Of a DNA stretch of 64,000 bases, positions 48,054-54,455 are shown one piece after another. The notes beneath the pieces are model-generated. The model searched no databases. It saw nothing but the letters and a program-made list of their open reading frames with translations, and was not told the DNA's origin. The position numbers were made by a program, and so were the translations under genes. Every line of letters starts with the position of its first letter. The first letter of the stretch is position 1. Source of the DNA: Shewanella pealeana ATCC 700345 (GTDB lineage Bacteria > Pseudomonadota > Gammaproteobacteria > Enterobacterales > Shewanellaceae); NCBI RefSeq assembly GCF_000018285.1, contig NC_009901.1:4401001-4465000 (forward strand), given 5' to 3'.

Positions 48054-48144
48054 CACTTGCGGTAGCGCCACTGCCATAGGTGTCCCCTTAGGCTGGATGC
48101 TTTGCGTCACCTGCTTTCACAGGTTTTGCCTTTTTCATCAAGTG
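48054..48144 (-). promoter_or_regulatory. Class I c-di-GMP riboswitch (GEMM-I) upstream of the chitinase gene
   Basis: On the minus strand: closing stem CACUUG (48144-48139) / CAAGUG (48059-48054); receptor strand GGCAAAACC; hairpin CCUGU-GAAA-GCAGG (48123-48110) with the GNRA loop; then the highly conserved GACGCAAAGC (48108-48099), UCCAGCCUAA, and the second helix closing with GCUACCG. Order and loop identities match the GEMM-I consensus. Links chitinase output to c-di-GMP; whether on or off cannot be read from sequence. Confidence 0.88.
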
Positions 48145-52680: not shown

Positions 52681-52899
52681 GGTTTTATAAACTCACGATA
52701 AAGATAGTTCGCATGTTAGATGAAAACCTTGCACTAAGGGAAAGCCTACTTTCTTTATGTGGATTAGTTCACGTATTCAGCCCCTACGCATTGATCCCGA
52801 GTACACTCATTATATAAAGCTTGAACTAGTGCACATTTTACAGAGTGTTGCTTGCGCCGCTTTGATAGCCGCGTACAATCCGCGCCAACAATTTATTGT

Positions 52900-52964
52900 G
52901 CTGTATATCGCTGGAAATCTGGTCCAGAAGTCTCTACCACAAGACCTAATCTTGTGACTACAGC
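52900..52964 (+). promoter_or_regulatory. Guanine-class purine riboswitch aptamer upstream of the purine permease
   Basis: P1 GCUGUA (52900-52905) / UACAGC (52959-52964). P2 CUGGA/UCCAG closes a 7-nt loop AAUCUGG. J2/3 is GUCUCUACC. P3 CACAAG/CUUGUG closes ACCUAAU. J3/1 is GAC, so nucleotide 74 is C (52958), the guanine type. The ligand-contacting U22, U47, U51 and C74 are conserved. Unusual: J1/2 appears one base short, and L3 reads CCUAA where CCGUAA is common. Confidence 0.85.
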
Positions 52965-52978
52965 CCAATCACCGTCCG

Positions 52979-53023
52979 CTGCCAAACGTTTAAAACACTT
53001 GGCAGGCCAGTGGTATCTGCCAA
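52979..53023 (+). promoter_or_regulatory. Mutually exclusive hairpins after the guanine aptamer (expression platform)
   Basis: TTGGCAG (52999-53005) can pair with CTGCCAA upstream (52979-52985) or with an identical CTGCCAA downstream (53017-53023). The second hairpin is followed by TAAATTTATT and may terminate; the first would prevent it. Classic layout for a switch. Confidence 0.65.
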
Positions 53024-53084
53024 TAAATTTATTGAACTCTTCGCGTATAAGAAAATTAGCGCATCAATAAAATAAGGCATCACT

Positions 53085-54455
53085 GTGGCGATCTCTAGCT
53101 TACTTCAACGTGCGGGTAAGTCCCGTTTTCTGGACTCAACCTTCAAGCTTTCACAGCGCAAGGCCAATGTTGGCACCGAGCTATATGCAGGCTTTATTAC
53201 CTTCTTAGCCATGAGCTATATTTTGGCGGTGAACCCAGCAATCTTAGGTAGCATCGATGGGATGGATAAGGGTGCGATCTTTACCGCCACCGCACTCGCC
53301 GCCGCACTTGCCACCTTGATAATGGGTTTTTTCGGTAACTATCCAGTGATGTTGGCGCCGGGCATGAGTATGAACGGCTTCTTTAAGGGCATGCTAGCAT
53401 CGAGCTCTGTGGCACTTATCTGGCACGAAGCCCTGTTCGGTATTTTCCTGTCTGGTATCGTCTATCTAATCTTTTCGATGACTAAGATCCGCAAGCAGAT
53501 GATTGAGTCGATCCCAGAAGATCTAAAACTTGCCATCACAGTGTCTTTAGGTCTATTTATCGCCTTCCTCGGGCTGAAGAACGCCGGCATTATTGTCGCA
53601 AACCCTGTAGTGATGGTCAGTATGGGCGATATCACCCAGCCACAAGTTGCCATCGCCTTTATCAGCTTGTTTGTCGCAGTCGGCTGCATGGTGAGAAATA
53701 TCAAACTGGCCACCTTTATCGCCTTTATGACCTCAATAACTCTCACGCTTATCAGCGATGCAGTGCTAGGCACTAAATATGCGCCGATCCCTGAAAATTG
53801 GTTCAGTGTGCCGCCTAGCATAGAGCCTAGCTTTGGTAAGGTGTTTAACTTTGAATTTTTAACCGTCGACAAGCTATTTGATCTACTGTTTATCGTTATC
53901 ATCTTCTTTATCGTCGACTTCTTCGACGGCTTATCGACGATTGTCGGCGTAGGTAAAGATGCAGGCATTATTGATAAAGATGGCAAGGTACCTAACGCCC
54001 GCGCAGCACTAGTAGCCGATGCTGGCGGCACGGTAATTGGCAGCGTACTGGGCACCACATCCATTACGGCGTTTTCAGAGTCTGGTATCGCCTCGGCGCA
54101 AGGTGCTAAAACGGGCTTAGCGGCAGTAGCCACCGCGATACTGTTCCTACTGGCTCTGTTCTGCTACCCAGTGTTCTCAATGTTCTCTACCGCTATCGTT
54201 GCACCCGCAATGATCGTAGTGGGGATTTATATGATAGGTCGTTTAGGGCAAATAAACTGGGATCATAAACCTTCGTGTATTGCCGCCTTCTTCACCATGA
54301 TGTTCACGATTTTGAGCTTCTCACCAGCTAACGGCATGGCTATGGGCTTTATCAGTTACGCATTTGCCATGGTGGTGGCCGGTAAAGGCCGTGAAGTTCA
54401 TCCAATCATCTATGGCTTATCACTGATCTTTATCACTTACCTTGTGATGCTCTAG
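53085..54455 (+). CDS. NCS2/AzgA-family purine permease
   Basis: 456 residues from a GTG start, with about 13 hydrophobic segments. Family signs: TELYAGFITFLAMSYILAVNP at the start, MLAPGMSMNGFFKG, and FVVDFFDGLSTIVGVG-like and GTTSITAFSESGIASAQGAKTGL segments of AzgA-type transporters. Takes up adenine, guanine or hypoxanthine by proton symport. The guanine riboswitch 120 bp upstream indicates that guanine/hypoxanthine is the likely cargo. No purine synthesis genes nearby. Confidence 0.92.
   Translation: MAISSLLQRAGKSRFLDSTFKLSQRKANVGTELYAGFITFLAMSYILAVNPAILGSIDGMDKGAIFTATALAAALATLIMGFFGNYPVMLAPGMSMNGFFKGMLASSSVALIWHEALFGIFLSGIVYLIFSMTKIRKQMIESIPEDLKLAITVSLGLFIAFLGLKNAGIIVANPVVMVSMGDITQPQVAIAFISLFVAVGCMVRNIKLATFIAFMTSITLTLISDAVLGTKYAPIPENWFSVPPSIEPSFGKVFNFEFLTVDKLFDLLFIVIIFFIVDFFDGLSTIVGVGKDAGIIDKDGKVPNARAALVADAGGTVIGSVLGTTSITAFSESGIASAQGAKTGLAAVATAILFLLALFCYPVFSMFSTAIVAPAMIVVGIYMIGRLGQINWDHKPSCIAAFFTMMFTILSFSPANGMAMGFISYAFAMVVAGKGREVHPIIYGLSLIFITYLVML

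Follow-up and report, generated by a model that had tools for sequence, protein, structure and literature searches.

The leader of a purine permease gene in Shewanella pealeana ATCC 700345 carries a guanine-type purine aptamer, followed by a strand, B, that is complementary to the 5′ side of the aptamer and, less strongly, tracks the translation start. The reading that we favor, with a probability of roughly two in three, is that the leader is a riboswitch that represses translation of the permease when guanine is plentiful, and that it does so by exchanging B between the aptamer and the start region. The window is the whole 64,000-nucleotide stretch of contig NC_009901.1 that was analyzed, and features lie on its plus strand unless a minus sign is given.

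Aptamer core and class membership

A covariance-model search of the 64-kb window with RF00167 returned a match at 52881–52980 with 55.8 bits (E = 7.3e-7; gathering cut-off 37 bits) that covers model positions 1–102, i.e., the full length, and the original prediction of a purine aptamer is borne out by this search. The aptamer proper (52901–52963) comprises P1 (52901–52905/52959–52963; five pairs plus an extension), J1/2 (52906–52908), P2 (52909–52915/52923–52929; five pairs and two mismatches), P3 (52938–52944/52950–52956; seven pairs) and L3 (52945–52949). U22, U47, U51 and C74 (52958), in xpt numbering, are all kept in the cmscan alignment, as had been claimed, and the GG and CC of the loop–loop contact are present in L2 (AAUCUGG) and L3 (CCUAA).

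L3 has five nucleotides instead of the seven of the consensus CCGUAAA, in agreement with the shortening noted originally, and P3 and L3 together span 19 nucleotides, two below the model; in the same genome, the add-type aptamer also falls two model positions short in this element. J1/2 had been described as one base short, however, the alignment is ungapped and J1/2 has three bases, UAU instead of the consensus UAA, with A24 replaced by U. At the base of P2 the first two positions are mismatched (C25-A45 and G26-A44). The window thus lacks the J1/2 UAA and the 7-nt L3 of the guanine-I consensus (UAU and CCUAA instead), and it is still filed under the purine class because these are consensus features and not ligand contacts. 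The insertions of guanine-II and xanthine-II are absent from the RF00167 alignment of the window, in which J2/3 reads GUCUCUAC and J3/1 reads AC. Judged by its sequence, the window aptamer is a bona fide member of the known purine riboswitch class, of the guanine type (C74).

The same genome (5,174,581 bases) contains a second RF00167 match (L001; 79.3 bits) with U74, upstream of a PF00962 adenosine deaminase, so that both types of aptamer, adenine and guanine, are represented once in it. A riboswitch aptamer of another class, c-di-GMP-I (RF01051, 76.5 bits), lies in the window at 48058–48140 (−).

Permease gene, leader and distribution

The frame downstream of the aptamer (53085–54455) encodes a 456-residue AzgA-type permease that matches PF00860 with 82.6 bits; a comparison with NCBIfam gave no match. 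Its identity is 36% with E. coli AdeP and 29% with GhxP, and three more paralogues (28–38% identity) are encoded in the same genome. In the named Shewanella records the permease is 94–97% identical, and their leaders are near-identical too. RF00167 with C74 on the one hand and PF00860 on the other lend support to the proposal of a guanine-type switch on an AzgA-family permease in a gammaproteobacterium.

Under strict filters, RF00167 matches were present in 46 of 295 genomes of the order, representing 9 of 99 genera, and, in a class-wide draw of 369 genomes, in the window's own genome only. A pattern scan with CUGUAUAU...GUYUCUAC...RACUACAG yielded 79 loci, 57 of them gammaproteobacterial (by record title, 41 Vibrio, 10 Shewanella, 3 Ferrimonas, 2 Aliagarivorans and 1 Psychromonas) and 22 from elsewhere, mostly Firmicutes. 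UAU and the P1 sequence are built into the pattern, which makes the scan uninformative on the frequency of UAU; the same scan places J1/2 UAU outside the gammaproteobacterial group as well, Firmicutes loci included. A frame of more than 330 residues was found in the stretch used at 53 of the 57 gammaproteobacterial loci, and all 53 are 73–97% identical to the window permease; at the remaining four the permease frames are cut off. Such a frame was present at 12 of the 22 other loci, with 11 of the 12 matching the window permease at 37–40%.

The 57 loci and the window make up the 58 gammaproteobacterial leaders compared below, for all of which a permease start was assigned (GTG in 57; TTG, picked by hand, in L064). 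Near-identical aptamers with conserved flanks occur in 10 Shewanella records besides the window. Close permease homologues (64–100% identity) are restricted to 4 of 40 genomes of the window's genus, its own included, all other matches being at or below 49%. In one of the four, G669 (permease 64% identical), the guanine aptamer is consensus-like and scores 72.4 bits, and L120 and L085 carry the UAU variant. When 31 loci of the order were parsed, of which 30 matched, the window had C74 and the other 29 had U74 with an adenosine-deaminase-like frame (PF00962 checked in L001 and L018); the 31 are the best-scoring matches, and this sample therefore leans to the adenine type.

A -10-like hexamer, TACAAT (52874–52879), recurs in 48 of the 58 leaders, and any -10-like match (TA[CTA]A[AC]T) beginning 24–28 nt 5′ of P1 in 53 of them. 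This conserved hexamer predicts an RNA 5′ end that is probably near A52887; a strict sigma-70 scan of the window leader did not find a promoter. Intrinsic-terminator-like sites are absent from 52700–53150, where 0.6 would be expected by chance. A possible PurR-like box in CCAAACGTTT (within 52981–52992) was set aside because PurR is reported in PMC3223726 to be missing in Shewanella.

Three of 118 genomes of one genus have a purine-class aptamer in which C74 is kept, position 73 is G and the closing pair of P3 is broken. G73 aptamers are located at L042 1252–1349 (−), L169–L171, L180 and L181, the last two with a Na+-dependent nucleoside transporter downstream (PF01773, PF07670, PF07662); G73 aptamers are candidates for altered ligand specificity, perhaps for a nucleoside. 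In L172 and L183–L191, consensus-like guanine leaders of one genus, J3/1 reads CC and not AC as judged from the letters, i.e., A73 is changed to C and C74 is kept, given a 7-pair P3; C73 has been proposed as the ligand-pairing base of 2′-dG-III (PMC9295807). L043 1420–1550 (−) and L049 450–562 are U74 aptamers that lie upstream of adenosine-deaminase-like frames and have an enlarged P2 loop region unlike the usual L2. L116, titled Pseudomonas sp. ISL-84, has a guanine riboswitch and a permease that resemble those of Cytobacillus, and is possibly mislabelled.

One strand with two proposed partners in the window

Three strands are relevant to the proposed switch. Strand X (52890–52914), supported by the X:B duplex and the permutation tests, comprises the RNA 5′ end, the P1 5′ strand, J1/2 and the P2 5′ strand. 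Strand B (53007–53030), CCAGUGGUAUCUGCCAAUAAAUUU, is complementary to X and to the start region and is the strand exchanged. Strand S (53074–53087), supported by the modelled B:S helices and a permutation test of the start region, contains the Shine–Dalgarno sequence AAGG (53074–53077) and the GTG start (53085–53087).

The X:B duplex of the window has a computed energy of −25.0 kcal/mol, equalled in 2 of 200 dinucleotide shuffles; duplex energies of this kind ignore tertiary contacts. When X was restricted to the first 8 aptamer bases, no signal was obtained in the window (76/100), and the pairing was missed because P2 belongs to it. The window X pairs more strongly with the downstream region of Ferrimonas (−28.2 kcal/mol) than with its own (−25.0 kcal/mol), and the window's own start pairing is no better than that of shuffles (31/100).

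Modelled energies depend on how much of the leader has been transcribed. In a transcript ending after B, the X:B structure is at −42.9 and the aptamer at −37.1 kcal/mol. At full length the order is reversed, with the aptamer plus masked start at −56.1 vs. −50.3 kcal/mol for X:B, a gap of 5.8 kcal/mol, and when the leader was trimmed to the predicted RNA start (six fewer bases) the masked fold is ahead by 2.1 kcal/mol. As the modelled transcript grows, the aptamer leads through 53018 and is nearly tied with X:B at 53024; X:B is best from 53030, where it leads by more than 5 kcal/mol, to 53072, and the start-masked fold is best at 53090. In the ligand-bound model 53076–53085 are paired with B, in helices 53008–53013/53080–53085 and 53018–53021/53076–53079. 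Forcing the aptamer gives the start region a mean unpaired probability of 0.21, whereas forcing X:B gives 0.64 (0.27 vs. 0.60 in the trimmed leader).

Covariation of strand B across lineages

The X:B pairing was matched by at most 10 of 200 shuffles in 47 of the 58 leaders, and more often in 11. In the cut transcript, 51 leaders (50 of 57 without L079) favored X:B over the aptamer and seven did not; the full-length preference for the aptamer was seen in 46, and the start was more open in X:B in 53 (52 of 57 without L079) and not in five, with a difference above 0.1 in 42 of the 53. The leader from Vibrio mexicanus, L079, is retained in counts of 58 unless stated, however, its forced aptamer was mis-indexed (−22 vs. 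−48 kcal/mol) and its aptamer energies are therefore to be ignored. Separately, L079 1994–2244 has a sub-threshold match to the Yersinia sRNA Ysr141 (74.3 bits against a gathering score of 196). All 11 Shewanella leaders, that of the window among them, retain X:B (no more than 4 of 200 shuffles as good); X is nearly identical among them, and they are therefore not independent.

The main evidence comes from a permutation test in which each X was set against its own or swapped downstream regions, using 13 lineages hand-picked from the 58 leaders and treated as exchangeable. With the 18 nt after the aptamer removed, the sum of own pairings was −263.1 kcal/mol, against a permuted mean of −173.2 (s.d. 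12.2), and was not reached in any of 20000 permutations; the flank and P1 part of X alone gave 0/20000, and J1/2 with P2 alone 27/20000. With the first 18 nt kept, the corresponding counts per 20000 were 0 for all of X, 0 for flank and P1, and 102 for J1/2 and P2. Two control segments of similar length gave 4294/20000 and 1814/20000. Tracking between the start region and the mid-region is weaker (245/20000; 364/20000 with 18 nt removed). In a 14 × 14 matrix, to which a second Shewanella was added, the own region ranked first for 5 of 14 and within the top three for 12. A pair table has both sides changed at most X positions, the invariant bases of P1 and J1/2 excepted, but its partners were picked by the duplex program, so that the permutation test is to be taken as the evidence.

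A later set, no member of which was used in forming the idea, consists of 13 RF00167 matches with a 102-base span and G669. These are consensus-like guanine aptamers (UAUAA, 7-nt L3) upstream of a permease frame starting MDKYF, identified in full as PF00860 for L173. In each of the 14, no more than 4 of 200 shuffles equalled X:B, and in twelve none did. The set comprises 10 genomes of one genus, nine of them with one or two near-identical B strands in common, 3 genomes of a second genus and G669 from the genus of the window, and thus amounts to about three lineages. Unpaired probabilities of the modelled start with the aptamer and with X:B are 0.35/0.48, 0.33/0.56, 0.46/0.53 and 0.38/0.34 in four consensus-like leaders; this effect is modest and once reversed, which leaves the output less clear for them. 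In Shewanella sp. MBTL60-112-B2 (L091) the start strand is altered, and the two states differ little in how open the start is (0.55/0.59).

No such signal was obtained for 10 adenine-type leaders picked from the 29, where X:B was matched by at most 10 of 200 shuffles in 0 of 10 and the permutation count was 14995/20000; the mid-region of this control is a fixed stretch 18–100 nt past the aptamer, unlike the start-codon-bounded regions of the other tests. Taken together, sequence comparison suggests that B covaries with the 5′ side of the aptamer and, less strongly, with the translation start. By sequence and covariation, one strand has two exclusive partners, as in strand exchange, the start-region half being the weaker.

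Proposed mechanism and alternatives

In the proposed mechanism, the aptamer would form first during transcription, possibly by about 52963, and B would be complete some 60 bases later, an interval that would set the time for guanine binding. If guanine is bound before B emerges, P1 and P2 would be held, and B would be free to pair with the Shine–Dalgarno sequence and the GTG start, giving the OFF state. Without guanine, B would capture the 5′ half of the aptamer (X) in a helix of about 22–25 pairs, and the start would be open once transcribed, giving the ON state. The full-length minimum is the start-masked fold even without ligand, and the model thus requires kinetic trapping; since the masked fold needs the 22–25-pair X:B helix to be opened, the ON state is probably trapped kinetically while ribosomes load. 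The CTGCCAA/TTGGCAG hairpin would be a constant element between the aptamer part and the switch part.

For the family as a whole, our judgment is evenly balanced on a broader proposal, namely that the azgA guanine riboswitches of this order are a lineage that switches by the 5′ half of the aptamer (RNA 5′ end, P1 5′ strand, J1/2 and, in many members, also the P2 5′ strand) and not by the P1 3′ strand. B would then have to follow the start site as well as the ligand-binding junction strand, and A24U and the weak P2 base may be tolerated, or selected, through the double duty of that strand.

The same exchange could in principle act on transcription, by Rho-dependent or other termination, rather than on translation initiation. 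B sits well 5′ of the start, and a precedent is described in PMC10907184, where some TPP riboswitches are said to target the ribosome-binding site and, by that route, Rho termination. We nevertheless consider this output unlikely: the start region is the second partner of B in Shewanella, F. balearica and the V. splendidus type, and the region 52700–53150 is devoid of intrinsic-terminator-like sites.

A different purine as ligand, e.g., hypoxanthine, xanthine or a nucleoside, with specificity altered by A24U and the weak P2 base, would be compatible with the mismatches at the base of P2, the U at position 24, the short L3 and a permease that resembles E. coli AdeP (36%) more closely than GhxP (29%). 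However, the UAU variant of J1/2 is present in Firmicutes pattern loci too, and U22, U51 and C74, all of which are kept, are the guanine-contacting positions named in PMC9295807, making another ligand distinctly improbable.

The original prediction assigned the switch to a repeated heptamer. TTGGCAG (52999–53005) is complementary to CTGCCAA at 52979–52985 and at 53017–53023, with 7 of 7 Watson–Crick pairs each, and the three strands claimed do exist, however, in both modelled states TTGGCAG is paired with the first CTGCCAA (hairpin 52979–53005), so that the claim of exclusive hairpins is borne out only in part. Comparison of the 11 Shewanella leaders yields the same hairpin, with the first pairing at 7 of 7 (G-U allowed) in 10 and 5 of 7 in the remaining one, against a Watson–Crick-perfect second pairing in 6, the window among them. 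In the model, the start region is likewise opened when TTGGCAG is paired with the second copy (0.46 unpaired), but at full length this pairing has to be forced at a penalty of 5.7 kcal/mol (−50.4 vs. −56.1), and P1 is intact in the forced structure, which leaves the choice made by TTGGCAG without a link to the aptamer. The competition that covaries is instead that for B, and the absence of terminator-like sites in 52700–53150 likewise speaks against a TTGGCAG choice as the expression platform, which we regard as very improbable.

That the aptamer is a functionless relic in this species, as its deficit of 23.5 bits relative to the add-type copy (55.8 vs. 79.3) might suggest, is barely credible given the near-identical aptamers and conserved flanks of 10 other Shewanella records and an X:B pairing preserved in all 11.

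Relation to known purine riboswitches

B exchange under control of guanine, the reading that we prefer, can be compared with two well-known systems. The window aptamer resembles the guanine-I riboswitch (RF00167, B. subtilis xpt-pbuX) in its three-stem junction, the GG of L2 and CC of L3, the U22/U47/U51/C74 set and the association with a purine-uptake gene, and would also be OFF with guanine. It differs in J1/2 UAU, the weak P2 base and the 5-nt L3, and, no terminator having been found, in a presumably translational output. The antiterminator of xpt is formed with the P1 3′ strand, whereas in the window it is the 5′ side of the aptamer, J1/2 and P2 included, that would be exchanged. The adenine riboswitch of Vibrio add is from the same bacterial order and shares with the window an output that for the latter is predicted to be translational; however, add has U74 and is a translational ON switch, whereas the window has C74 and would act in the opposite direction.

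Control of adenosine deaminase and a purine transporter by a purine riboswitch in Shewanella is reported in a regulon reconstruction from 2011 (PMC3223726), and the two target genes are the same as those in the window genome. The less-described subgroup proposed originally is real, with 57 loci and a homologous permease, but the association of aptamer and transporter is already in print there and is thus not new; the descriptions found in that source do not include the expression platform or core variation. Guanine-II, xanthine-II and 2′-dG-III, which according to PMC9295807 are confined to Firmicutes, share the junction scaffold with changed joining regions; guanine-II and xanthine-II have insertions in J2/3, and xanthine-II also in J3/1, unlike the window, where J2/3 and J3/1 are free of insertions. 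Terminator-bearing purine riboswitches likewise have an alternative helix, backed by covariation, that excludes P1 (PMC3723493), however, only members with a terminator no more than 100 nt away were retained in that alignment, and in the window the platform is presumably translational and uses the opposite aptamer strand.

Purine riboswitches were placed in one or two proteobacterial lineages by a 2013 survey (PMC3766115), and their horizontal transfer is cited in a paper from 2017 (PMC5584792). Strand exchange is described in PMC10907184 as the commonest binary riboswitch design, with the switching sequence mostly in the first helix; the Rfam purine model ends near the aptamer according to the same source, and purine platforms outside the terminator-bearing members are therefore little covered by such alignments. 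In the literature searched, no description was found of 5′-side capture including J1/2 and P2, with covariation, in gammaproteobacterial guanine riboswitches; this absence is unproven, and Singh and Sengupta 2012, on the distribution of purine riboswitches, may include the present loci. The aptamer class is known, and the 5′-strand platform looks like a novel variant.

Natural variation over many lineages offers a ready test of strand exchange via one bridging strand. If the proposal is correct, the azgA leader would be a guanine-repressed translational counterpart to the adenine-type add switch, within the same order and, here, in the same cell.
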